DNA of 49,528 nucleotides from Cytophagales bacterium (GTDB lineage: Bacteria > Bacteroidota > Bacteroidia > Cytophagales > Cyclobacteriaceae). The notes beneath the pieces were generated by a model that was not told where the DNA came from, searched no databases, and worked only from the letters and a program-made list of their open reading frames with translations. The translations under genes and the position numbers were made by a program. Location of the stretch: contig WGNT01000021.1 of NCBI GenBank assembly GCA_016124425.1, forward strand, positions 1-49,528, in the 5' to 3' direction. Every line of letters starts with the position of its first letter. Position 1 is the first letter of the stretch. Shown here piece by piece: positions 1,549 through 14,069 of this stretch.

Positions 1549-3036
1549 TCACCTTCCAACGAGCAGAGAATTCCTCCAGGATATTTCCAACAACGTATCT
1601 AACTCCGTTAACATGCTTTCATATTCGGGTAAAATGGCTAGATTTTGATGTGCCAAAGAATTGTCTTTATGTTGATACAGTTCTTGTGCCAGGATATTTC
1701 CGCTGCTAAGTTCTTCCCATCGGGTGTAGCGGTATTGTTCTGTACGCATTGAATAACCCATAACCTCTCCATTGTTTCGGGGAAATTGACTTAGCGCTAC
1801 TTCCTTCCATTTTTGATCGGGATGCTGTAAAACAGGCACAAAACTTTTTCCTTGTAGGTGTGCCGGTTTTGGTAAATTAGCCAATTCCGATAGTGTAGGA
1901 TAAATATCCACCAATTCAACAAGTGAAGCGGTACGGTGCCCTTTGTCTGTCATCCGCGGTACACATACCATGAGTGGTGCCCGGGTGTCGATTTCATAAT
2001 TGGTATGTTTGCACCAGTCCCCATACTCCCCCACTTTAAAGCCATGGTCACCCCACAGGACAATAATTGTATTATCCGCTAGGTTTAACCTTTCCAGTTC
2101 GTCCAACACTTTCCCGACTTGTGCATCCACGTAGCTGACGCAGGCCCGGTATCCGTGAATAAGCTTTCGGGTGAGCGCAGTATCCAAATCTCCTTCCGGA
2201 GGCACGGAATAATAGGCGCGTAATTCTCCCCAGTTGGAAGGCGCGATTCCAGGCGTACCAACTGGCAATACAGGCTTGGGAAGGATTATGTCCGAAGCTT
2301 GGTACATATCCCAATATTTCTTGGGAGCATTGAAGGGGAGATGCGGCTTATAAAAACCTATTCCCAGAAAGAAAGGCTTCTTCTGTTCACTCATTTGACG
2401 CAGCGATGCTATCGCACGCGCTGCAATCACGCCATCAGGGTAAGCGGTATCCGGCAAATCGGCCATTTCATAGGGCAATCCTCCCCCGTTATTCAGATCT
2501 GCAATGGCATTGCTTGTATCCAAGGCATAAGCCCGCCAGTTTTCCATGGGCCATTGAGGCTCTATACGGCGGTCTTGGTCATTTCCACCTACGCTCCAGG
2601 AAGCGCTGTCTAAAAGCGCTGCATGGTAAATTTTACCCCAGAATTCCGTATGATACCCGTGCTGCAGGAAATGCTGCGGTAAGGTAACCACATTTGGTAC
2701 CACGTCCCTGAAATGGGTTTGCAGATCATAGATGCCGGTAATATCCGGGCGAAGGCCGGTCATCACACTGGTACGGGAGGGCGAACAAACACTCTGTTGA
2801 CAATAAGCCCGTTCAAAAAGGACACTCCGCCGCGCCAGTCGATCAATGTTGGGAGAGTGGATGTGATTCTCACCATAGCAGCCAAGTTCAGGTCTAAGGT
2901 CATCCACAGCGATGAACAGGATATTCACCGGAGGAGGAGTTTCCAAGGAATTCCCTGAATTTTCAGCCGGCCGACAACTAGAAGAGAGTACCAGAATACA
3001 TAGTAGCGTAACGAAGTAAATTGGGTTTTTTTGCAT
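1549..3036 (-). CDS. Lipoprotein sulfatase, iduronate-2-sulfatase-like
   Basis: A 495-residue type I sulfatase that hydrolyses sulfate esters, probably of sulfated polysaccharide. The N-terminus is a lipoprotein signal with the lipid-accepting Cys21 in LSSSC. The metal-binding Asp pair is at 45-46 (VDDLRPE) and the formylglycine signature CSPSR is at 84-88, so Cys84 is the residue to be oxidised. FWGKIYH and a GDHG motif further on fit the iduronate-2-sulfatase-like group. No sulfatase-maturing enzyme is in the window; the FGE-fold protein at 22181 lacks the catalytic cysteines. The gene starts only 32 bases after the LTA-synthase-like gene on the same strand, but its base composition is less A/T-rich than the cluster upstream, so I treat it as native flanking sequence that could be read through. 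The exact substrate cannot be told. Confidence 0.92.
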   Translation of the reverse strand: MQKNPIYFVTLLCILVLSSSCRPAENSGNSLETPPPVNILFIAVDDLRPELGCYGENHIHSPNIDRLARRSVLFERAYCQQSVCSPSRTSVMTGLRPDITGIYDLQTHFRDVVPNVVTLPQHFLQHGYHTEFWGKIYHAALLDSASWSVGGNDQDRRIEPQWPMENWRAYALDTSNAIADLNNGGGLPYEMADLPDTAYPDGVIAARAIASLRQMSEQKKPFFLGIGFYKPHLPFNAPKKYWDMYQASDIILPKPVLPVGTPGIAPSNWGELRAYYSVPPEGDLDTALTRKLIHGYRACVSYVDAQVGKVLDELERLNLADNTIIVLWGDHGFKVGEYGDWCKHTNYEIDTRAPLMVCVPRMTDKGHRTASLVELVDIYPTLSELANLPKPAHLQGKSFVPVLQHPDQKWKEVALSQFPRNNGEVMGYSMRTEQYRYTRWEELSSGNILAQELYQHKDNSLAHQNLAILPEYESMLTELDTLLEISWRNSLLVGR

Positions 3037-3068: not shown

Positions 3069-4778
3069 TTAGTGACTCTTCTTTTCAAAGACTATGCCTT
3101 CGGGAAATATAGGCAGATTGACAGTACTTTCGGAGTAAACCTGTAAGAAAGACTTCATGAATAAGGAGTAGAATCCTTCGTGTCTTATAGTATTATTAAT
3201 ATTAGTTAGCCCTTCATGAAAACCTTCGCTTCTAAATCCATCAATCAATTTCTCATTTGTCGACAATACATACAATGGTGTTTCGAAACCTAGTGAATCA
3301 GTAGGGATATATGGAGGTTGATGGTCTCCAAAGATAACATAGATCTTATTGGGATTTTTAGATACATAATCAAAAACCACTTCTAATTGATAAACAATTG
3401 ACTTAATATAATTTGCTTTTCTTGGCTTATTTATTTGTGTTGTTGTGTCAAAATTCTCAATAATGTTAAGGGTTTTATAATCTTCTTCTAATTGTAGAGG
3501 AGTATGCCAGTTACAATGGGAATTGAGTGTAGAAAAAAGTGAAATTTTGGGCTTAATGGATTTTGAATTGATAATCTCCATTCCTTTCCAAAGAGAGAAC
3601 TGATCGGGCGGACTGTAGGAAGCATTCATAAAATCGAGTGTTTTTCCACGATATTCTAAATCATCCCATTTAATAAAGGAATCCATAGGATACACATTTT
3701 TCACCTTTTCCCAATCAACCTGAAAATCATCATATCCCCCTAATGTAGCAATCATAGAAGCGTCGTATCCCTGATCTTTAAAATAATGGATCATTGATTT
3801 ATATCTTTTAAAATTAGATTGAATTTTAAAGATAGCATTGTACTGAATGTCATGCTCCATTTTGTATCCATAAACTAAGGATCCAACGCTCAACCAAGAA
3901 CCTCCACCATATTGTGGTGCTGTGGAATAGCTAGATGCAATGTGTATACCTTTACTTGAGAATTTCTCGTGATAATCTGATAGTGTCTTTTTGATTTCGG
4001 CATAAATTTCCTCATCCTTATAAGCTACCGAACCAAAAGATTCTATAGATATGATTACAATGTCTGGCTTTTCTATAAGGTTGTAATTTGAATAGATATT
4101 TTTTGATAATACATCATTTATATCAAAATTTAACATACTCAGATATTTCTTTGAATTGATTATATTTTTAAAAAAATGAATACTTGGCGAGAGTACACCC
4201 CTCAAATGATAAATATGAAATCGAAAGCTGAAAATATCTTTGAAACCTAAAACGACTAAACCAGAAACTAGTAAGAGATAGGTAATAGTTGATACTTCTA
4301 GGGAAAGTAATGATTTCGATATATAATAAAATAGGCTGTAAAATAGGATTAATACTAAAAATAACGCAAAGAAGATAATGTACTTTTTCTTCTTCATAAG
4401 TGTTAATCCAACTTTTATAAAACTTATATCTGCCTTTATCATTGGAACTCTTTTAAAGAAAAAGGTAATTGTAAAAATGTATGTAATATAAATCAGGCTC
4501 CAAAGACTAACAGCAGCGATCAAGTGAGAGGCGAGATTACTTTCTATTTGAAAAACCTTGAATAGCAATATGAGAAATGAACATTCCAAATTTATCCTTA
4601 AGAAGTCACTTGAAACTCTACAATAGTGTTGACCTAGAAAATACCTTATATTCAGTATACTGATTTTTAGAAAATAGATTGGATTAGGTTGCTGCTTAAT
4701 ATTGGAAAGATATCCAAGAAAAAAGCAAAGAAAATTAATTGACAGAAAAAGTAAGACAAACTTTACATCCTGATTCAT
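3069..4778 (-). CDS. LTA synthase / phosphoethanolamine-transferase-like membrane protein (sulfatase superfamily)
   Basis: A 569-residue protein with about five membrane segments in the first 190 residues, then an extracytoplasmic alkaline-phosphatase-fold domain. Visible motifs are IVIISIESFGS (metal-binding Glu247), APQYGGGSW at 287-295 (a Ser/Thr nucleophile is expected here, probably Ser294) and IFGDHQPPY near residue 495. This is the layout of lipoteichoic acid synthase and related enzymes that move phosphoglycerol or phosphoethanolamine from a phospholipid to a sugar or lipid outside the membrane. It is the last gene of the A/T-rich cluster, 11 bases after the PTPS-like gene. By inference it adds a phospho-headgroup to the exported product. 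The substrate is unknown and a non-transferase role is possible. Composition is strongly A/T-rich compared with the sulfatase that follows. Confidence 0.8.
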   Translation of the reverse strand: MNQDVKFVLLFLSINFLCFFLGYLSNIKQQPNPIYFLKISILNIRYFLGQHYCRVSSDFLRINLECSFLILLFKVFQIESNLASHLIAAVSLWSLIYITYIFTITFFFKRVPMIKADISFIKVGLTLMKKKKYIIFFALFLVLILFYSLFYYISKSLLSLEVSTITYLLLVSGLVVLGFKDIFSFRFHIYHLRGVLSPSIHFFKNIINSKKYLSMLNFDINDVLSKNIYSNYNLIEKPDIVIISIESFGSVAYKDEEIYAEIKKTLSDYHEKFSSKGIHIASSYSTAPQYGGGSWLSVGSLVYGYKMEHDIQYNAIFKIQSNFKRYKSMIHYFKDQGYDASMIATLGGYDDFQVDWEKVKNVYPMDSFIKWDDLEYRGKTLDFMNASYSPPDQFSLWKGMEIINSKSIKPKISLFSTLNSHCNWHTPLQLEEDYKTLNIIENFDTTTQINKPRKANYIKSIVYQLEVVFDYVSKNPNKIYVIFGDHQPPYIPTDSLGFETPLYVLSTNEKLIDGFRSEGFHEGLTNINNTIRHEGFYSLFMKSFLQVYSESTVNLPIFPEGIVFEKKSH

Positions 4779-4789
4779 AATTGAATTAT

Positions 4790-5164
4790 TTAATTAGATT
4801 CATATCCAGCCCATGCTGAATGTGTCTCACCGAGGTTCACAGCGATGGTACCCATAAAAAATGAGCTGACTTTATTTTTTACCTCATCGTGGATATACTT
4901 TGCCATAAATTCAGTGGTCGTCAGTTTACCATTGAAAATTTCCAAGGCATCTAAGTTTTGATACGACAAGGGAGATAATACCTCTTTGATGACATTGTGA
5001 GCCAGTCCTATGTCTATTACTACGTTGTGCTCATCCAAGTTTTCACTTCTGAACGTAACGTCTACGACAAAGGTAGCCCCATGCATATTCTGGGCGGGGC
5101 CAAAAAAGGGATGTGGCAGTGAGTGTGCAATCATTATCGAATCTCTAACAGTAACGTGGTACAT
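4790..5164 (-). CDS. 6-pyruvoyltetrahydropterin synthase / QueD-fold protein lacking catalytic residues
   Basis: A 124-residue T-fold protein of the PTPS/QueD family. Against E. coli QueD the alignment is clear: His14 (IAHSLP) and His28 (NMHG) match two zinc ligands, but the third ligand is Ala30 (HGA in place of HGH). The catalytic cysteine of the CxxxHGH motif is Ala24, and the catalytic His of the LDHHYLN motif is replaced in NLDALEIFNG. The pterin-anchoring Glu in the C-terminal ETHSA motif is kept. It therefore probably binds a pterin- or pyrimidine-like ring but is unlikely to carry out the normal zinc-dependent reaction. From memory, S. coelicolor SCO6650 shows the same losses. It sits between the FkbM methyltransferase and the LTA-synthase-like gene. 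Confidence 0.85.
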   Translation of the reverse strand: MYHVTVRDSIMIAHSLPHPFFGPAQNMHGATFVVDVTFRSENLDEHNVVIDIGLAHNVIKEVLSPLSYQNLDALEIFNGKLTTTEFMAKYIHDEVKNKVSSFFMGTIAVNLGETHSAWAGYESN

Positions 5165-5182
5165 AAAATTATTGTTTATAGT

Positions 5183-5926
5183 TTATATATGATATGTTCT
5201 GGCATAAATATCACCCGTGTATAATTTCGAGTTGTTTGTAAGGTGGGTTTTTATATCATCTGCTTCGACCCAGTCCTTAAATGTCATTTTAAACGTTTCT
5301 CGTAAAGAGAAATTAAATTGTGTATATCCTAATTTCGATAATATCAATATACATTCCTCCATAAGGTCGATATTGAAACTTAGCACTTCGAAAGAAATAT
5401 AGTTAACTGGTTGACTCAGTCCTTGCAATACTTCGGATTCATATCCTTCCACATCGATTTTGATAAAAACAGGTTTTCCATATTTGGTGATTAACTCATC
5501 TAACGTTAGCACATTTATTTCAATAGTCTCGTCATACGGAATAGTTAGCGGAGTTGCGCGATTGATCTTGTTTCTCCATTCTTTACCGGACAGTGTGCTA
5601 AGCGTAGGGAATAAATTGCTGATATGTAAGGTAGAGGTTGCTTTTGTGGCACCAAGTGCAATTTCCTCATTGTAATAATTTTGGTTTCCTTTAAACACCG
5701 ATGCTAAGTAGGCGGAAAATCTGGGTTGCGGCTCTACCCCTACTACTCTGGCATCCAAACTTAACCAAGCTGCCGATCTGTCCCCGAGGTGAGCACCAAC
5801 ATCAAAACATAGATCGCCTTTTTTTATAAACTGACTATAAAATGCTTTAGCCCTTTTTTTCTTCCATGGATTACCTTCATAGAGAACTTTAGAAATCCAC
5901 CATCCAATAGCTCTTTTTATGTTCAT
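5183..5926 (-). CDS. FkbM family SAM-dependent methyltransferase
   Basis: A 247-residue class I methyltransferase of the FkbM family, which typically O-methylates hydroxyls of sugars or natural products. The SAM-binding motif FDVGAHLGD is at 41-49, followed by an acidic strand-2 residue in VVGVEPQP, and the family-typical IKIDVEGYE lies near residue 155. Its start overlaps the end of the MDR oxidoreductase gene by 4 bases, and it ends 18 bases before the PTPS-like gene, so it belongs to the same transcript. It is one of four methyltransferase-like proteins in this cluster. The acceptor is unknown, probably a sugar hydroxyl. Confidence 0.88.
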   Translation of the reverse strand: MNIKRAIGWWISKVLYEGNPWKKKRAKAFYSQFIKKGDLCFDVGAHLGDRSAAWLSLDARVVGVEPQPRFSAYLASVFKGNQNYYNEEIALGATKATSTLHISNLFPTLSTLSGKEWRNKINRATPLTIPYDETIEINVLTLDELITKYGKPVFIKIDVEGYESEVLQGLSQPVNYISFEVLSFNIDLMEECILILSKLGYTQFNFSLRETFKMTFKDWVEADDIKTHLTNNSKLYTGDIYARTYHI

Positions 5927-6864
5927 GACCTAGTATAGTTAATTAGATCGACCAAGGCATGCTTGTTTCCCGGTGTCTTCAATGCGTCAAAATGGGCGGG
6001 TGTATTTTCGAATGGAATCTCATTTGAAATTAACTCATCATAGGATTCATGCAGCAGTAAGTCACAGGCTGCTTGCTTTCGTTCTTTATACTCTTTAAAT
6101 GGAGCAAAAGGAGAAACAGTCGATACCTGACTACTTATGAGTTTCACTCTATTGTAGTGGAAGTTTCCTCCCAATTGGAGGTTCACCGCTTTATTTCCGT
6201 ACCAGCTTAGTTCTATTACGGAACCACCTTTTTTTACATGATCCAGAGCATATTGCAACCCGTTGTTCGAGGCTGAGGTGTGAAATATCACATCAAAATC
6301 ACTAGTTTCCATTGGAAACCCCATTTGTTGCGCCTTTGAAAGCTTGTCCTTATCCAGTTCCTTAACGCATGGATTTATTCCGGTATAGTGCTTGACTGTT
6401 AGTGCCAATAGGGCACCGATGCCACCAAACCCAATCACTAACACTTTTTCCTTACCAGTCAATTGTGCATCCCACACGGCGTTTACAGCCGTTTCCATGT
6501 TTGATAGCAAAGCAGCCCTTCTGTTGGGCAAATTCTGGGGGATGGTAAACAAATCTGATTCTTTGGCGTATAGAAAGTTTTGATGTGGATGCATTAAATG
6601 TACATTTCTGCCATCTTCAGTTTTTCCTACTAAAGAGTATCCGTATTTTACAGGAAAGTTAAAATTTCCACCCATGTAATTGACTCTCATGTTTTCTTTA
6701 AGTGCGTTCGGAACAAGGCCACTAGCCACAAGGGTTTCAGTGCCAGTGCTTATGCATGAATAGTCGGCTTTTACTAGCACGTTTTCTTCTCCGGTAGGAA
6801 TGATTACCTCTTCGAGAACGGCTGTTGTCTTTTGATCTATATGCCACAATGCCCTAGATTTCAT
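5923..6864 (-). CDS. Medium-chain (MDR) oxidoreductase, zinc-independent looking
   Basis: A 313-residue protein of the zinc-binding-dehydrogenase superfamily. It has an N-terminal GroES-like domain and a Rossmann NAD(P) domain (GFGGIG at 145-150). The usual catalytic zinc motif GHE is replaced by GYSLVG (75-80), and SCISTGTET (36-44) stands where classical members have GxCxSD. This matches the subfamily with SxxSxGTE and GYSxxG signatures often found in glycan and natural-product clusters. It probably oxidises or reduces a hydroxyl or keto group without structural zinc. It starts after a 117-base gap holding two hairpins, so it may head a secondary transcript or processed RNA. The substrate is unknown. 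Confidence 0.8.
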   Translation of the reverse strand: MKSRALWHIDQKTTAVLEEVIIPTGEENVLVKADYSCISTGTETLVASGLVPNALKENMRVNYMGGNFNFPVKYGYSLVGKTEDGRNVHLMHPHQNFLYAKESDLFTIPQNLPNRRAALLSNMETAVNAVWDAQLTGKEKVLVIGFGGIGALLALTVKHYTGINPCVKELDKDKLSKAQQMGFPMETSDFDVIFHTSASNNGLQYALDHVKKGGSVIELSWYGNKAVNLQLGGNFHYNRVKLISSQVSTVSPFAPFKEYKERKQAACDLLLHESYDELISNEIPFENTPAHFDALKTPGNKHALVDLINYTRS

Positions 6865-6899
6865 CTGTTTATAATTTGTTTTTCAGCGGTCATAACTTG

Positions 6900-6967
6900 T
6901 CCCGAGTATCGGGATGGAATCTTCGCATGAATTATAATCATCCCTCCGTGTGAGGTTTTCCTCATGC
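6900..6967. other. Two intercistronic hairpins
   Basis: The gap between the flippase and the oxidoreductase holds two inverted repeats: TCCCGA/TCGGGA with a 3-base loop (6900-6914), and TGAGG/CCTCA with a 4-base TTTT loop (6951-6964) that extends with wobble pairs to 6967. On the minus strand neither is followed by a clear T-run, so they look more like RNA-processing, stability or attenuation elements than standard terminators. The other spacings in the cluster are far shorter, from slight overlaps up to 18 bases. Confidence 0.5.
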
Positions 6968-6981
6968 TCGATTTCATGTGA

Positions 6982-8289
6982 TCAGAATTGAGTCCAGTAA
7001 ATAAAGAGAGCTGCACAAAAACCGAAATTGATCATGAGGTCATATGTCGGTCTTACGTTAAGCTTATGCTTGTGTTTTATTAACCAGTAGAACACCGATG
7101 TGTTGACAACATTGGCGATAAAAAGTGATAGTAGGATGCCGTCGATGCCGTATGATGGCACAAGTAAGTAAAAAACAGGAACTAAAACCAGTAACTTCAA
7201 AAATGAAATTAACGTCAAATTTGCCGAGTCTTTTTTATATGAAAACAATAGTGCAAAGTACCTGACATAAACAAGGGGTATAATGCTCATACCAAACAGC
7301 GGTATGCTCTTTATCAAAGTAAAGTATTTTGGGTTGTTTATCCAGTAAGGTAGAATAAATGCCAGGGTCATCACACTAAGTACTACAAGTAATGCGACAC
7401 CCACATATATAACTTGGTAGTAGGTTATGTTATGTTCCGATTCTTTGTTTTTTAAGCTAGTGAATAACCTAGGCCTCACTGCATTGTCCAGTGAATTTAT
7501 TATCGTCGAAAAAATCCCACCTGTCGTGAGTAATAGAGCATATATACCTAATAGTTCAAGTGTGTGATATTTTTTTAGAAAAAACCGGTCTAATTGTTGT
7601 TCAGCTGTTAACAGAAACAAAAATGGTATCAGCGGTAAGGTATATTTAAGACTTGTCCTTAACATACTATTATCTATCTTTCTGATCTTGAACTTGCCCT
7701 TATACACTATATAGATTAATTGAACGCATCCCGTAACTAAAAGGGCTACAAAAAAGGATAAAATTCCAAAACCCAATAAGACGATGCCAATGTATTGAAG
7801 ACAGATGGTAATAGCCGAAGCTGTTAGTGAGTACCATAGATATTCTTTTCGGTTTTCGCGGTTTTGGCAGTCTATGGCATATAAAATATTCATTGATCCA
7901 ATGAAGATGTTGACTACTGAGAGTAGGCCATACGGAAAGAAATTTACACCTGTACCAAATGCAACATCAAAAATAGATTCTCCAAATACCATTATTAAAA
8001 TTGATATAATGCTGGAAATGACCAATATCGATGTGAATAAAGTTTGAAAATACTTTTCTCTTTCAATTTCATAACTGTAGTCAAAATAGTAAACTCTATA
8101 TGCGGATTCCAATTTGAGACCCATCACTACACCTAATATAGCAGAGAAGGAATTTATTAAAGCATAGATCCCGTATTGCTCTACTGATAATATATTTAAA
8201 TATACTGGAAGCAAAAGGAATCCAATTATTGCCGGTAATATTGACGCTAAAGAATATAATGCGGTTGAAGTAAACACATTTTTAAACAT
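6982..8289 (-). CDS. Polysaccharide/oligosaccharide flippase (Wzx/MATE-like)
   Basis: A 435-residue protein made almost wholly of hydrophobic segments (about 12-14), beginning MFKNVFTSTALYSLASILPAIIG, as in Wzx-type flippases of the MOP exporter superfamily, with the typical AEQQLDRFFL motif near the middle. Such proteins turn lipid-linked glycans from the cytoplasmic to the outer face of the inner membrane. It starts 6 bases after the methyltransferase at 8296. Its presence says that the cluster product is a membrane-anchored molecule that is exported. The specific cargo cannot be read from the sequence. Confidence 0.85.
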   Translation of the reverse strand: MFKNVFTSTALYSLASILPAIIGFLLLPVYLNILSVEQYGIYALINSFSAILGVVMGLKLESAYRVYYFDYSYEIEREKYFQTLFTSILVISSIISILIMVFGESIFDVAFGTGVNFFPYGLLSVVNIFIGSMNILYAIDCQNRENRKEYLWYSLTASAITICLQYIGIVLLGFGILSFFVALLVTGCVQLIYIVYKGKFKIRKIDNSMLRTSLKYTLPLIPFLFLLTAEQQLDRFFLKKYHTLELLGIYALLLTTGGIFSTIINSLDNAVRPRLFTSLKNKESEHNITYYQVIYVGVALLVVLSVMTLAFILPYWINNPKYFTLIKSIPLFGMSIIPLVYVRYFALLFSYKKDSANLTLISFLKLLVLVPVFYLLVPSYGIDGILLSLFIANVVNTSVFYWLIKHKHKLNVRPTYDLMINFGFCAALFIYWTQF

Positions 8290-8295
8290 GTAAAT

Positions 8296-9054
8296 TTATT
8301 TATGTTTCTTTATTTCCAATATCATATAATTCATCTTTTTTTGTGTATATAGAATATCTAAATAAATCCCACCCCGAAAGATGTCCGTGTACGATTCAGA
8401 TACAAACGACTTTAGCATGACTAGGCCTAACAATTTTAACCTAGATGATAGGATGGACTTACTACTTACGTAGTTTGTAATATCTATGGTAGTACCTGCG
8501 GGTAAGTCTTGAATGTCAATTAACTTTTCTAGACGCCAATCTTCAATCAATTTTTGTTCGGGCTTTTGGCTGACTGTACTTCCACAATAGAAGTCGTCAA
8601 CAACGATTAGGCGGCCATTTAATCTTAGGCCGTCCATTAGTGAATGTACAGATGAATGTATTGGGATAGCGTGTTTCAGAGATTCTACACAAATAATGGT
8701 ATCGAAGGAATTTTTCGGTATGTCTTCAAAGGAAAGGATATCAAATGAGCAATTTTCATTACCTAGTTGAATCAGGTTTTGTCTAGCTTGATGAATTTCT
8801 AAAGGGCTAATTGAGATCCCTAACACGTTGGCTGGTGTACTTTGTGCCATTTTCAGACTCCCATAGCCTACACCACATCCAGCATCTAATATGCTTTTAG
8901 ATTCGTTCAGGTTAAAGTGCTTAATGAGGAAGTCATAAATATCTTGGTTATCCGGCAATGATAGTTGTTTGTGTATGGGATATAACCGAAATCTCTTCGT
9001 CCTTTTCTCAATCTTAAACAAGTCGTTATATAGACGTGAAACTTTGTCTTCCAC
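8296..9054 (-). CDS. Class I SAM-dependent methyltransferase
   Basis: A 252-residue methyltransferase with SAM motif I LDAGCGVGYG at 56-65 and a post-I region LGISISPLEI. The arrangement resembles the cyclopropane-fatty-acid-synthase / tocopherol-methyltransferase type of fold, enzymes that often act on hydrophobic or small-molecule acceptors. VESLKHA occupies the position of the usual ESxxHh motif. It starts 4 bases after the end of the neighbouring methyltransferase, so the two are cotranscribed. Acceptor unknown; N-, C- or O-methylation cannot be distinguished. Confidence 0.85.
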   Translation of the reverse strand: MEDKVSRLYNDLFKIEKRTKRFRLYPIHKQLSLPDNQDIYDFLIKHFNLNESKSILDAGCGVGYGSLKMAQSTPANVLGISISPLEIHQARQNLIQLGNENCSFDILSFEDIPKNSFDTIICVESLKHAIPIHSSVHSLMDGLRLNGRLIVVDDFYCGSTVSQKPEQKLIEDWRLEKLIDIQDLPAGTTIDITNYVSSKSILSSRLKLLGLVMLKSFVSESYTDIFRGGIYLDILYTQKKMNYMILEIKKHK

Positions 9055-9058
9055 TTTC

Positions 9059-9757
9059 TTATTGTTTCTTTTCTAAAATGAATACAAACTCATAAGCATA
9101 TCGTAATGGTATCCACCCTTTATGGATTCGAAAATATCCATTCCAAGTACCTAGGGATAAATACCTTTTCCATTTCATCAACGGCCATTGATCTTTATAA
9201 ATCTTTATTATATTAAAACCTGATTCGCGAAACAAAGAAGACCACTCATCCAAGTTCATAGCGTCCTGATGACCTCTCTTGTTCACGAATCCAAAGGGGC
9301 GTTGAATAAATTTCCAAAACCAAGACTCTGAATTTCTTACCATGAGACAAATCTTTCCGGTATCAGTTAGTACTCTTTTCATTTCTTGTAATGCTTTGTT
9401 CCGATCGAGCATTCGTTCTAATGATCCTAGACAGGTCACGTAATCAAATGTACCATCCACATAGGGTAAATCTTCAGCGTTGCCAACACGGATGTCGGCT
9501 TTTTGGTACTTCGCCTTGGCTTTTTGGACCGCGATGTCTGAAATGTCTATGCCCGTCGGTTTCAAGCCGAATTCATTGCTAACAGCTATAATTCTCCCAA
9601 GTCCACAGGCTACATCTAGAATGGATCTATTCTTTTCGACCTGTAACATGGTGAGAAAAACCCTATAAGCGGCAATTGGTCTTAAATACAATTCGCCGTG
9701 GCTTTCATAGGTCTTGTCAAACCATTCTTTAATTTCCAATTGCGTTTGCTTCGTCAT
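9059..9757 (-). CDS. Class I SAM-dependent methyltransferase
   Basis: A 232-residue methyltransferase of the Methyltransf_11/UbiE type. Motif I is ILDVACGLGR (46-55), then GIDISD, then AEDLPYVDGTFDYVTC, the usual motif II region. Its start overlaps the stop of the membrane methyltransferase by 4 bases. A different subfamily from its neighbour at 8296, so the two probably act on different positions or at different steps. Acceptor unknown. Confidence 0.87.
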   Translation of the reverse strand: MTKQTQLEIKEWFDKTYESHGELYLRPIAAYRVFLTMLQVEKNRSILDVACGLGRIIAVSNEFGLKPTGIDISDIAVQKAKAKYQKADIRVGNAEDLPYVDGTFDYVTCLGSLERMLDRNKALQEMKRVLTDTGKICLMVRNSESWFWKFIQRPFGFVNKRGHQDAMNLDEWSSLFRESGFNIIKIYKDQWPLMKWKRYLSLGTWNGYFRIHKGWIPLRYAYEFVFILEKKQ

Positions 9758-10308
9758 ATATAAAGAGAACTTCGGGTTCTGTTTTTGTAAGCTACATATT
9801 GGTTACCAAAGGCCTCTAAAAGGAATTTTTCTTCCAACTTTGCTCTATTTTTTAAATAAATGAAAACCAATATGCATCCTGAGAAGAAGATTATACTCGG
9901 CATTAGAACACACATACAAAATAAAAAGGTGGTAGTACCGTCAATATTAGGATTTCTTGTCCATTTAAAGTAGCCATCGTTATGCAATTTTTCTGGGTTT
10001 TTTCTTAATTGTACCATAGCTCCAAATGAGAGGACTCTTCCAAGCACAACGAGTATCAATCCAGTAATGATTACCCAGCTTGAGGTTGAGAGTGAATGCA
10101 AATGGAAGTAAATATTAACTAGAGGATAGGCGATAATTCCAAGTACCAGGAGATTGGAGGACAAAGCCAAAATACTTCCTATTAGTCCAGTTTTCCTGCC
10201 CTTTAGTATCCGAAACGTACTACCTTGGCTAGTTACTGGAAAAAACACCAATTCAATTAATAGGGTTAAATATGCCAAACTGATGAAATATGGAAGGAAT
10301 TGAATCAT
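9754..10308 (-). CDS. Isoprenylcysteine carboxyl methyltransferase / PEMT-like membrane methyltransferase
   Basis: A 184-residue integral membrane protein with about four hydrophobic segments. The C-terminal half has the ICMT/PEMT family signature: GYFKWTRNPNIDG at about 112-124 (in place of the common RHPxY), then Glu residues at 159-160 and FGNQYVAYKNRT at 168-178. These enzymes methylate lipidic carboxylates, amines or phospholipid headgroups at the membrane face. Overlaps of 4 bases with both neighbouring genes show tight translational coupling. Here it probably methylates a membrane-anchored intermediate; this is inference from context. Confidence 0.78.
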   Translation of the reverse strand: MIQFLPYFISLAYLTLLIELVFFPVTSQGSTFRILKGRKTGLIGSILALSSNLLVLGIIAYPLVNIYFHLHSLSTSSWVIITGLILVVLGRVLSFGAMVQLRKNPEKLHNDGYFKWTRNPNIDGTTTFLFCMCVLMPSIIFFSGCILVFIYLKNRAKLEEKFLLEAFGNQYVAYKNRTRSSLYI

Positions 10309-11276
10309 AGTTCAGTAAACATTTTCGCGGAATCCGTCCAGGTGTTTACTGGAAATTTCAGAACAGACTCACATTGGTCCTTATAATAAAGGGGATCTGA
10401 ATGCATCTTTATTATTGCCCCTGATAATTCATCTACCTCAAAGCCAGCTAAGACATGCCCTATCTGTTGTTTTTTGAAAGCCACGTAATTTCCGGTAGGC
10501 GTTGTAATTATGGGAATTCCTGAAGCTATACTTTCTAACAAGGCCATGCTGTTATTTTCTTCTTCCGAAAAGGAGATGACCGCATCAAATTTTAATATGA
10601 ATTCATTCATTTGGGGAAATTCTACTTCTTTATTCAGAATTACCCTACCCCCGGCTTCCTTGCTTTTCTCGATAATCCGTTTGCTGTAATCCCTCTCGCT
10701 GTGTCGTCCTACTAGTGTCAAGTTGATTGGATAGGCTAAGGACATAAATAGTTTGACAACTTCCAATTGCCTTTTTCTTTTGCATAGATTTCCTATCATC
10801 AAAAAATTTGTAGCTGAATTCGAATAGACGCTTTTTTTCTGCCATCCGGAAGCTACCCCGGGAGGAATGATGAAGTGCTTCTTAAGCGTGCCAGTGTAGA
10901 ATAAACTGCATTGGTTTAGCGAATGTTCACCAGCGAAAATAAGGGGGACTTTTTGACATATTTGGCGTTGTTTTTTAACTATATTTAGTCTTTTATGTGT
11001 TTCTATCTCCTTGTTAACGGATGGCCAAAGATGTATTAAAAAGTATATGGTTTCATTTTTGTAACTTTCTAGGTTTAAGAACTCATCTATGATGATACTA
11101 TCCAAAATTATAATAAAGCCTTTTTTTAGATACTTCTTTGCGTATATGTCTTTCGTTTGATGAACTTCGTGGCCTAATACTTTTAAACTGTCGGCTATAT
11201 TGGTATTGTAGATATTGCCTCCGCTCTGATAGTCAGATTTATTGTTGACAAAAACAAATGTTTTATATGAGCTCAT
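10305..11276 (-). CDS. Glycosyltransferase family 4 (GT-B fold)
   Basis: A retaining GT-B glycosyltransferase of 323 residues from the chosen start. The C-terminal donor-binding half is clear: FLMIGNLCKRKRQ begins the Rossmann domain, and SMALLESIASGIPIITTPTGN holds the family-4 E(x7)E-type region. I chose the ATG at 11274-11276 (MSSYKTFVFVNN) because it opens directly on the first beta strand and overlaps the previous gene by only 14 bases. An upstream ATG at 11324 would give 339 residues and a 62-base overlap. It adds a sugar to the cluster's product. Donor and acceptor are unknown. Confidence 0.85.
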   Translation of the reverse strand: MSSYKTFVFVNNKSDYQSGGNIYNTNIADSLKVLGHEVHQTKDIYAKKYLKKGFIIILDSIIIDEFLNLESYKNETIYFLIHLWPSVNKEIETHKRLNIVKKQRQICQKVPLIFAGEHSLNQCSLFYTGTLKKHFIIPPGVASGWQKKSVYSNSATNFLMIGNLCKRKRQLEVVKLFMSLAYPINLTLVGRHSERDYSKRIIEKSKEAGGRVILNKEVEFPQMNEFILKFDAVISFSEEENNSMALLESIASGIPIITTPTGNYVAFKKQQIGHVLAGFEVDELSGAIIKMHSDPLYYKDQCESVLKFPVNTWTDSAKMFTEL

Positions 11277-11928
11277 TAGACCATTTATAAAACCGGTAAT
11301 AAGATTTCGCAAATGATAGTACAATCAGAATGCTGCTGACTACTAGAAAAGTAGACGCCCATTCATTTTGGAAAAAGTAAAAAATTATTAATGCTATAAA
11401 GTAATTTCCTGCAATAATACTCGCATATTTTTCTTTAGCTTCCACAAACTTTTGAGCGCGATCCATGATGTCAAGCGTAAATTTATAGAAGTAGCGTAGA
11501 AAAGCAGGGATTAAAACAATCCACATAGATGGGTAATTCATAAAGACTAGTATTGACGCTACCATGACAAATAGGGCGTCAACTTCCATGTCATAGTACA
11601 TTCCAAATTTTGATTGTTCATTCCTGAACCTTGCGACAAACCCGTCAATGATATCTAATACTGGAATGATCAAAACAATGCTTAATAGGTAGTAGTCGGT
11701 AAAGTTGAGTTTTCCAGAAATAAAAACTAGTAGTACTACCAGAAGCAATCGTGATGTTGTTATTAAATTTGCTAGTCCAAAATAAGCTAAATTTTCCCAA
11801 GCAGATTTGTTCTGAGCGATAAATAGCGAAAAAGAAGTGGCGATTAAAAGAATTGCTACAACATAAAAATTGCTTAATAGGAGAATTAAGCCGGCAACTA
11901 CAATTAATATACACTGTGTTGATTTCAT
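11263..11928 (-). CDS. CDP-alcohol phosphatidyltransferase family protein
   Basis: A 221-residue integral membrane enzyme with about six hydrophobic segments and a complete family motif D-x2-DG-x2-AR-x8-G-x3-D-x3-D: D92, D95-G96, A99-R100, G109, D113 and D117 are all present. Such enzymes displace CMP from a CDP-activated alcohol and form a phosphodiester, as in phosphatidylglycerol-phosphate or phosphatidylinositol synthesis. The sequence is far from the housekeeping PgsA and PssA types as I know them. It directly follows the reductase gene with no spacing. Its presence next to GTP-cyclohydrolase and pyrimidine-reductase genes is the strongest hint that a GTP-derived alcohol is attached to a lipid, or that a CDP-polyol is used. 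Substrates are inferred, not shown. Confidence 0.88.
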   Translation of the reverse strand: MKSTQCILIVVAGLILLLSNFYVVAILLIATSFSLFIAQNKSAWENLAYFGLANLITTSRLLLVVLLVFISGKLNFTDYYLLSIVLIIPVLDIIDGFVARFRNEQSKFGMYYDMEVDALFVMVASILVFMNYPSMWIVLIPAFLRYFYKFTLDIMDRAQKFVEAKEKYASIIAGNYFIALIIFYFFQNEWASTFLVVSSILIVLSFAKSYYRFYKWSNELI

Positions 11929-12843
11929 TTATACGTTGTATATAGGTTTTCCATGATACAAAATGTGATTATCTGAACTTGAGAAAAAACCGTCTAGCTT
12001 TAAGGATTCACTCACCTCATCAATTGGAGCCATTTCAAAGGCACATTTGCCTGATCCAAAAATAACAGGAGCAATATGAATTTGCATCAAATCAATCAAT
12101 TGTGCTTCATAGAAATTTGACAGCGTAATACTTCCACCTTCTATGAAAATTGAACTTACACCGAAATCCTTTAATTTGGCTAATACTTCCTTAATTGGTT
12201 GATTTTCCTTTGAATAACTTATGTGGTGATCTATTCCCTTTGGTTTTCTTTTTATTATATCTTTGTCTGCGATCAATATGGTGAAGGTATCGTGAGCGTG
12301 ATAAGAAGAGTAATCATGTATGGAATTACACCAAAATATGCGTTTTGGGTTGTTACCTTTGACCCTTCGTACCGTTAGTTTTGGCTTATCGGCCTTTATT
12401 GTTCCTCCGCCTACCATTACGGCATCCACCATTGCACGGAGCCGATGGCTGTGATTCAGATTATCTTCGTTGCTTATCCATTTAGATTTTCCGCTTGATG
12501 TGCAAATCTTACCATCTAAGGATTGTGCGAAGTGGGTGATAATGAGTGGTCTCGATGGCTTTAATTTATTTGCCATCAATAATGGGACATATAATCTTAT
12601 ATAGGATACCAAATCGTTTGGAATTTCATCAAATTCTGCAAATAATAGGTTATTATATAAATCTAATGTGTTACTATAATCACCACTTTTTTGAAAGGTG
12701 ATTTTGAATAGATCCTGCTTGCTTGGCTTTTTGGAAAAACCTTCGAGAATTGAATAATGCAGACTTTGATAATCGATATGCTCTGGAATTTTTTGCTCCT
12801 TGGCTTTTATCAAATGGAGCCAAAAGACGTTTAAGGATGTCAT
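11929..12843 (-). CDS. RibD C-terminal-type pyrimidine reductase without deaminase domain
   Basis: A 304-residue protein whose residues ~98-304 match the RibD_C / dihydrofolate-reductase-like reductase that converts the ribosylaminopyrimidine of riboflavin synthesis into its ribityl form with NADPH. Visible motifs are FAQSLDGKI (105-113), VGGGTIKADKPKLTVR (144-159), FIEGGS near 235 and APVIFGSG. The first ~95 residues are not the zinc deaminase of bifunctional RibD: no HAE or PCxxxC motif is present, and I do not recognise them. Its start overlaps ribA by 4 bases (ATGA). This pairing without deaminase points to a branch leaving the riboflavin route at the diaminopyrimidine stage. Confidence 0.87.
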   Translation of the reverse strand: MTSLNVFWLHLIKAKEQKIPEHIDYQSLHYSILEGFSKKPSKQDLFKITFQKSGDYSNTLDLYNNLLFAEFDEIPNDLVSYIRLYVPLLMANKLKPSRPLIITHFAQSLDGKICTSSGKSKWISNEDNLNHSHRLRAMVDAVMVGGGTIKADKPKLTVRRVKGNNPKRIFWCNSIHDYSSYHAHDTFTILIADKDIIKRKPKGIDHHISYSKENQPIKEVLAKLKDFGVSSIFIEGGSITLSNFYEAQLIDLMQIHIAPVIFGSGKCAFEMAPIDEVSESLKLDGFFSSSDNHILYHGKPIYNV

Positions 12844-13439
12844 TTGATATGAATTAGGTGGTGACCTAAATTGAATTTCTTGGTCTTTAAATACGCTAGG
12901 TTCTCTATTTTCGGCTCAATCTCCAAAGGCATCCTTTCAACCTTCTCAAAACCGGCGTCAATCAATGAGGCTAACTTATCTGGATTATTCGTTAATAACC
13001 TTATTTTTTGAATGTTCAACTCCTTTAATATGTCGACCGCGATATCGTATTTTCTTGCGTCTATCTCGAATCCAAGCTTTTTGTTCGCTTCAATGGTATC
13101 CAAGCCGTTTTCCTGTTCACGGTATGCGTGTAATTTATTGATTATACCTATCCCTCTACCTTCCTGGCGTAAATAAATGATTACACCTCCCTCCAAACCA
13201 ATAATTTCCATAGCCTTATTGAGTTGTTCGCCACATTCGCATTTTCGAGAGCCAAATAGGTCGCCGGTAATGCACTCTGAATGGATTCTCACATTAACTG
13301 GATTGTCGAGATTTGTTTGGGGGTTGTAAATCACAATTGTTGGGACGTAGTCATCAACTTTATTGGAGTAGGCGCGCATTCTAAAATTTCCAAAATCTGT
13401 GGGAATATCTGCTTCACCTTGAAGTATTACTTTGCTCAT
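12840..13439 (-). CDS. ribA: GTP cyclohydrolase II (ribA-like, stand-alone)
   Basis: A 199-residue zinc enzyme that opens the imidazole ring of GTP to give 2,5-diamino-6-ribosylamino-pyrimidinone phosphate, formate and pyrophosphate. The three zinc cysteines are Cys56, Cys67 and Cys69 (HSECITGD...KCECGEQ). The active-site run LRQEGRGIG is at 90-98 and Tyr106 (in NKLHAY) corresponds to the E. coli Tyr105 position, which favours full hydrolysis rather than stopping at the formamide. LLTNNPDK is at 148-155. Unlike most Bacteroidota RibA it is not fused to a RibB domain. It is the first gene of the cluster, so it probably feeds the dedicated pathway rather than riboflavin supply. No FMN riboswitch is visible upstream. 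Confidence 0.92.
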   Translation of the reverse strand: MSKVILQGEADIPTDFGNFRMRAYSNKVDDYVPTIVIYNPQTNLDNPVNVRIHSECITGDLFGSRKCECGEQLNKAMEIIGLEGGVIIYLRQEGRGIGIINKLHAYREQENGLDTIEANKKLGFEIDARKYDIAVDILKELNIQKIRLLTNNPDKLASLIDAGFEKVERMPLEIEPKIENLAYLKTKKFNLGHHLIHIK

Positions 13440-13943: not shown

Positions 13944-13946
13944 GTG

Positions 13947-14018
13947 TAGTCCCGACAAGAATCGAACTTGTATCTAAAGTTTAGGAAACTTCTATTCTAT
14001 CCATTGAACTACGGGACC
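13947..14018 (-). tRNA. tRNA-Arg (anticodon CCT)
   Basis: A 72-nt cloverleaf on the minus strand. The acceptor stem GGTCCCG pairs with CGGGACT (the first pair is G-T wobble), the discriminator base is A, and the T-arm contains GTTCGATTC. The anticodon loop TTCCTAA holds CCT at the middle, with stem GAAGT/ACTTT, so it reads AGG codons as arginine. CCA is not encoded: CAC follows instead. A 5' partial copy lies just upstream at 14047-14069. Confidence 0.93.
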
Positions 14019-14046
14019 AAATTACTACCTCCAGGCTACTATATCC

Positions 14047-14069
14047 ATCCATTGAACTACGGGACCAAA
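14047..14069 (-). repeat. 23-bp direct duplicate of the tRNA-Arg 5' part
   Basis: The 23 bases at 13999-14021, the tRNA 5' end with three flanking bases, recur exactly at 14047-14069, offset by 48 bases. The copy contains the acceptor 5' strand and D-arm start only, so it cannot form a tRNA. It may be a remnant of a tandem duplication or of integration next to the tRNA. The same sequence was not seen at the other end of the A/T-rich cluster. Confidence 0.85.

Follow-up and report, generated by a model that had tools for sequence, protein, structure and literature searches.

A conserved twelve-gene operon of a Cyclobacteriaceae genome as a candidate route from GTP to a glycosylated, membrane-anchored heterocycle

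The stretch of DNA analyzed here (the window: 49,528 nucleotides, contig WGNT01000021.1 of GCA_016124425.1, a metagenome-assembled genome (MAG) of a Cytophagales bacterium of the family Cyclobacteriaceae) carries a minus-strand run of 12 co-directional open reading frames (ORFs) from position 13439 down to 3069. Read 5' to 3', these encode RibA, RibD_C, a CDP-alcohol phosphatidyltransferase (CDP-OH enzyme), a GT4 glycosyltransferase, a PEMT-like protein, the methyltransferases MTb and MTa, a flippase, a medium-chain dehydrogenase/reductase (MDR), an FkbM methyltransferase, a PTPS-like protein and an LtaS-like protein (Table 1). A sequence-only reading had proposed that a tightly packed operon of these twelve genes diverts GTP into a membrane-anchored product. 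The operon itself proved real and the packing tight, as 10 of the 11 junctions overlap or are no more than 18 bp apart, the exception being the 117 bp between the MDR and flippase genes. Most of the proposed domain families were confirmed by Pfam; the PEMT-like protein fell just below the cut-off, and the MDR protein was assigned by its relatives and fold. Alignment of homologues indicates that the GT4 gene probably starts at an inner ATG near 11276, instead of at the TTG at 11324. We consider it somewhat probable that these genes form a dedicated pathway branching from GTP to a glycosylated, methylated, membrane-anchored heterocycle, a product that we infer from the gene content.

Table 1. 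Genes of the operon, in order of transcription, with window coordinates and the matches on which each assignment is based.
Gene product	Coordinates	Strand	Matches
RibA-like GTP cyclohydrolase II, 199 aa, stand-alone dedicated copy	12840..13439	(-)	PF00925 3e-58
RibD_C reductase of a separate group, lacking the deaminase, 304 aa	11929..12843	(-)	PF01872 6e-33
CDP-alcohol phosphatidyltransferase, 221 aa	11263..11928	(-)	PF01066 1e-14
GT4 glycosyltransferase	10305..11324	(-)	PF00534 2e-13
PEMT/ICMT-like integral membrane methyltransferase	9754..10308	(-)	PF04191 6e-5; NCBIfam isoprenylcysteine methyltransferase 5e-7; both below cut-off
MTb, class I S-adenosylmethionine (SAM) methyltransferase	9059..9757	(-)	PF08241 1e-19
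MTa, class I SAM methyltransferase	8296..9054	(-)	PF13847 6e-16
Wzx-type flippase (Polysacc_synt)	6982..8289	(-)	PF01943 1.5e-9
MDR dehydrogenase, BchC/polyol-dehydrogenase-like, without canonical GHE zinc motif	5923..6864	(-)	MDR relatives and fold
FkbM-family methyltransferase	5183..5926	(-)	PF05050 7e-16; TIGR01444 above cut-off
PTPS-fold protein, SCO6650 type, canonical catalytic residues lost	4790..5164	(-)	PF01242 2e-24; 3D7J/SCO6650 1e-31
LtaS-like membrane phosphotransferase	3069..4778	(-)	PF00884 (Sulfatase) 5e-7

A profile of the PTPS-like protein was scanned against 84,980 species genomes and gave at least 580 confirmed sites, the best 80 of which lay in Bacteroidota, Alpha- and Gammaproteobacteria, Planctomycetota, Spirochaetota, Cyanobacteria, Actinomycetota and Neomarinimicrobiota (seven phyla). 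Gene content was counted in 77 loci, each 19 kb or longer, selected by PTPS similarity and hence skewed to Rhizobiales and close PTPS relatives. The MDR and PTPS-like genes were each found in 76 loci, GT4 in 74 and a methyltransferase family (C0) in 61, followed by RibD_C (53), RibA (44), the CDP-OH enzyme (41), cytochrome b561 (37), the LtaS-like protein (31) and FkbM (31). The cytochrome b561 gene, of prokaryotic type (e.g., L112:13017-13553), often stands beside RibD_C, which suggests a redox link.

Within the family of the window genome, the special RibD_C of the operon is separated from ordinary RibD by a wide gap in E-value (<1e-35 versus >1e-23) and was present in 13 of 97 other genomes. 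All 13 carried the MDR gene, 12 also PTPS-like and GT4 genes, 10 the CDP-OH gene and 8 a local RibA; the thirteenth has MDR alone, with neither PTPS-like nor GT4 gene in its locus. In these 13 genomes the 20 kb surrounding the housekeeping RibBA served as a control, where the other families were found in 0/13, so the association of MDR, PTPS-like and GT4 genes in 12 of the 13 relatives is not a matter of chance. A failure of these families to occur together in other genomes had been named beforehand as grounds for giving up the proposal; they were clearly found together, with near-complete sets in Flavobacterium piscinae (L039, 11/12), a Flavobacteriaceae MAG (L041, 10/12) and a gammaproteobacterial MAG (L048, 11/12). 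The same core is present on annotated plasmid records of Streptomyces, Microbacterium, Rhizobium, Methylosinus and Thiodictyon. Among 395 sampled Bacteroidota genomes, the window genome included, 2 have a PTPS-like gene of this type. A phage origin was rejected, as phages gave no match to the PTPS-like protein.

The operon RibA scores above the TIGR00505 cut-off and retains the three zinc cysteines and the Tyr105 equivalent of a GTP cyclohydrolase II (PDB alignments, concordant with an E. coli RibA reference). These residues are kept in the RibA of every locus checked except Streptomyces, in which Met stands at the Tyr105 position and a creatininase-family gene lies nearby. The archaeal formamidopyrimidine (FAPy) deformylase ArfB is a member of the creatininase family, and SCO6655 is reported to make FAPy only, so that the Streptomyces and Tyr105 versions would converge on the diaminopyrimidine. 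A rule that creatininase is present if and only if RibA is without Tyr105 was dropped, since the gammaproteobacterial loci L110 and L113 have both Tyr and creatininase. For RibD_C the top PDB match by profile was 2azn, the archaeal reductase that acts on the substrate before deamination.

The operon is not a riboflavin operon: it carries RibA and RibD_C and is without the deaminase, RibB, RibH and RibE, whilst the RibD and RibH of the window genome are encoded elsewhere, on contigs C151 and C108. A long GTP cyclohydrolase II frame of RibBA size (373-432 aa) was found away from the cluster in all 13 cluster-bearing relatives; 8 of these also carry the short RibA within the operon, and the remaining 5 keep the long enzyme. 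In addition, RibA is fused to RibD_C in Nostoc (2 cases) and to GT4 in Planctomycetota (2 cases), which ties RibA, RibD_C and GT4 to one product. These data support the view, already taken in the sequence-only reading, that a dedicated RibA/RibD_C pair supplies this pathway and diverts GTP away from riboflavin.

The MDR protein has no Pfam match, and its relatives and fold place it in the polyol-dehydrogenase/BchC type, BchC being the closest curated model. Its AlphaFold2 model (predicted local distance difference test, pLDDT, 90.5) matched MDR alcohol, polyol and sugar-phosphate dehydrogenases in the PDB, including sorbitol, xylitol, idonate and galactitol-phosphate dehydrogenases and the TarJ type. 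The PTPS-like protein scores below the NCBIfam cut-offs for both PTPS and QueD. In a residue census covering 98 rows, some of them from near-duplicate loci, the ring-binding Glu113 was kept in 98/98, the catalytic Cys was replaced by Ala in 98/98 and the HGH motif by HGA in 98/98; one (the third) zinc His and the Asp-His pair are lost as well. Residue equivalences came from PDB alignments and, for QueD, a reference sequence. In line with the proposed relation to the SCO6650 locus, the protein belongs to the same subfamily as SCO6650 (1e-31), with the FGPAQxxHGAT motif and the ring-binding Glu, and its locus also has MDR and GT4; in the window these two genes lie within the operon, yet do not directly adjoin the PTPS-like gene.

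The predicted motif of the CDP-OH enzyme, D-x2-DG-x2-AR-x8-G-x3-D-x3-D, is indeed complete, and it is conserved in 16 homologues. Its matches to PgsA and to archaetidylinositol- and phosphatidylinositol-phosphate synthases were only weak. In the LtaS-like protein, predicted membrane helices precede a domain of alkaline-phosphatase fold that has a metal site and a nucleophile, as in the LtaS type; E246, S294 and G484-D485-H486 are conserved. A sequence search of the PDB gave no useful match for it; the best fold matches of its model (pLDDT 77) were LtaP (template modelling score 0.38/0.50), LtaS and GacH, above most phosphoethanolamine transferases, from which fold alone does not separate the protein.

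LtaS-like genes were present in 31 of 41 CDP-OH-positive loci versus 0 of 36 negative loci (p = 4e-13), and in 21/30 versus 0/17 (p = 1.3e-6) after collapse to 47 genus-level groups, hand-assigned by record titles. Flippases (LPG_synthase_TM or Wzx-like) followed the same pattern (24/41 versus 0/36; collapsed p = 7e-5). Neither flippase nor LtaS-like gene occurred without a CDP-OH gene among the PTPS-sampled loci; free-standing modules were not searched for. The co-variation supports a single module of CDP-OH enzyme, flippase and LtaS-like protein for lipid attachment, flipping and extracytoplasmic phospho-transfer. The export and extracytoplasmic genes had been thought an addition of this version, which is not so, as they recur in Rhizobiales, Gammaproteobacteria and, in the form of CDP-OH enzyme plus flippase, Actinobacteria. 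Nor is the module universal. A CDP-OH profile search of 12 genomes gave a strong match in 2 (Agrobacterium, and Cereibacter outside its 20 kb locus) and weak matches, as ordinary phospholipid synthases would give, in the other 10, among them Bosea, Ancylobacter, Jiella, Hyphomicrobium, Methylobacterium and Nostoc, which have the core without a close CDP-OH match. Lipid anchoring therefore looks like an optional branch of a wider core pathway.

Two further neighbors were seen at these loci. A YfhO-like membrane protein is encoded in ten alphaproteobacterial loci (e.g., L076:13724-16045), only where the CDP-OH gene is absent, and is perhaps an alternative anchoring or glycosylation route. Near the CDP-OH gene of three gammaproteobacterial loci (L110:7537-8121, L113 and L116) there is a YceI-like periplasmic protein, recognized by inspection; being confined to these three, it was rejected as a general partner.

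Taking together the observed gene content, its conservation, the active-site residues and the co-variation of the lipid module, we infer the following chemistry. GTP would be opened by RibA to 2,5-diamino-6-(phosphoribosylamino)pyrimidinone, the ribose of which RibD_C would turn into a ribityl chain with no prior deamination. The MDR dehydrogenase would then oxidize a hydroxyl of this chain. Oxidation at C2' would give the 1-deoxy-2-keto (Amadori) intermediate that also arises from GTP cyclohydrolase I, and this could close onto the 5-amino group to form 7,8-dihydroneopterin phosphate. The SCO6650-type PTPS-fold protein would hold the ring via its retained Glu and may help ring closure or a side-chain reaction unlike those of PTPS and QueD. 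Decoration by GT4 and the methyltransferases may come before or after the step in which the CDP-OH enzyme would link the polyol (phosphate) to the phosphatidyl group of CDP-diacylglycerol. The flippase would turn the lipid outward, and the LtaS-like enzyme may add a phosphoglycerol-type group outside. Least certain are where the MDR enzyme would oxidize the chain and whether a pterin results; taken on their own, we hold these parts to be less likely than not. Confidence is strong for a conserved pathway at the level of the genes, moderate for a GTP-derived glycoside, and weaker for the exact ring.

Several observations weigh against this scheme. GTP cyclohydrolase I is present in all 14 genomes checked, so that a redox detour to dihydroneopterin phosphate seems uneconomical; this speaks against a pterin product or in favor of another oxidation site. 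The usual zinc motif is missing in the MDR protein, so that fold and family are the basis of its putative redox role. Scored as a single sequence, RibD_C fits the curated archaeal model no better than the bacterial one, and it is below both cut-offs. Local RibA or RibD_C is absent from part of the loci, e.g., RibD_C from the Streptomyces plasmid locus, and the cytochrome b561 gene of 37/77 loci is left unexplained. Neither RibB nor RibBA was found in the window MAG (5.5 Mb, 88.6% complete). In this genome alone the operon RibA might serve riboflavin too; for the missing RibB, the best explanation is that the assembly is incomplete.

We think it rather unlikely, though deserving of most attention among the alternatives, that no pterin ring is formed and that the product is a lipid-anchored glycosylated 2,5-diamino-6-(oxidised ribityl)amino-pyrimidinone, with the PTPS-like protein as a pyrimidine carrier or isomerase. 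Such a product would suit genomes that already have GTP cyclohydrolase I for their pterins, and a PTPS-like protein without canonical catalytic residues. It fits poorly with a PTPS-type ring pocket whose ring-anchoring Glu is strictly kept in all rows of the census, and with the ready closure of a 2'-keto chain beside a 5-amino group, which is established GTP cyclohydrolase I chemistry. Less likely again, the GTP-derived product would be a glycosylated pterin or signal that is soluble and secreted, the CDP-OH, flippase and LtaS module belonging to a separate envelope lipid that is only co-regulated. The genomes with a core and no close CDP-OH match speak for it; against it, the module sits within the same tight operons across several phyla, and at the PTPS-sampled loci its other members always accompany the CDP-OH gene. 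It is very improbable that the operon RibA merely supplies riboflavin here and that the remainder is an unrelated surface-glycan operon, for although the window MAG has no second GTP cyclohydrolase II or RibB, the assembly is incomplete, the relatives have their separate RibBA-sized enzymes, and the fusions join RibA to RibD_C and GT4. The proposed branch from GTP stays our preferred reading. In an extended form of it, which we regard as unlikely, bacteria of many phyla would make a glycosylated pterin by redox steps that bypass GTP cyclohydrolase I (RibA, then reduction by RibD_C and oxidation by MDR, with the altered PTPS-fold protein). Many of them would tether this redox-active pterin to a phospholipid outside the cytoplasmic membrane, where it could exchange electrons with a neighboring cytochrome b561.

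The operon has a G+C content of 0.36, versus 0.44 in the remainder of the window, and looks like an inserted island. In the one congener compared, the special RibD_C is absent, and the syntenic site holds only a 65-aa remnant, about 530 bases from rpsP, matching the sulfatase whose gene (1549-3036) adjoins the operon in the window. Upstream of the operon (13946-14069) there is a tRNA-Arg(CCT), and 48 bases off its 5' end recurs as a 26-nt copy with 96% identity, possibly an integration scar of the low-G+C island. No riboswitch or other known RNA regulator was found upstream of ribA by Rfam, which gave only a tRNA, and a promoter and terminator scan gave sites no more numerous than in shuffled sequence. 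A defense system was rejected, as the PADLOC matches were generic or weak only.

No lipid of such a GTP-derived kind is known to us, and no such product is described in the open-licence literature searched. That literature does not mention SCO6650, SCO6651 or SCO6654, and no paper in it names both GTP cyclohydrolase II and CDP-alcohol phosphatidyltransferase; SCO6655 occurred once, in a metabolic-modelling paper (PMC2853524). The novelty lies in the pathway and the proposed product; all of the enzymes are of known families, and the version in Streptomyces was known already as a locus with no assigned product. If the scheme is true, there is a widespread class of molecules with a GTP-derived head group, whose enzymes now carry riboflavin, queuosine or alcohol-dehydrogenase names in automated annotation. 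The scheme would explain the solved structure of SCO6650, give the early riboflavin enzymes a second use, and imply a new lipid type in CDP-OH-positive lineages and a new soluble or differently anchored glycoside elsewhere. MDR, PTPS-like and GT4 would be the defining gene set for finding the product.

Among known systems, the closest is the SCO6650-type Streptomyces locus (3D7J; RibA-type SCO6655), with its PTPS-like protein of the same subfamily. The published SCO6650 structure reportedly has no zinc, no catalytic triad and no PTPS activity. The Streptomyces fungicidicus plasmid locus brings together the CDP-OH enzyme, MDR, PTPS-like, GT4, a methyltransferase, creatininase and RibA, without RibD_C, and has an extra unannotated ORF resembling an LPG_synthase_TM flippase. 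Compared with the Streptomyces locus, the window is without creatininase and keeps RibA Tyr105, and it adds RibD_C, FkbM, the PEMT-like protein, the Wzx-type flippase and the LtaS-like protein. With the riboflavin pathway the operon shares the first two enzyme families and probably two early reactions, whereas the deaminase, RibB, RibH and RibE are absent from it. PTPS of tetrahydrobiopterin synthesis and QueD of queuosine synthesis share their fold family and ring-binding Glu with the window protein, which has lost their catalytic Cys, third zinc His and Asp-His pair. The logic would resemble phosphatidylinositol mannoside assembly, in which a head group is placed onto CDP-diacylglycerol and a PimA-type GT4 glycosylates; unlike there, the head-group precursor would come from GTP, and there are no inositol genes. 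Finally, the phosphoglycerol transferases LtaS, LtaP and GacH are the best fold matches of the LtaS-like protein and share its metal-site pattern; it differs in having a putative Ser nucleophile in place of Thr and no surrounding glycerol-phosphate polymer pathway.

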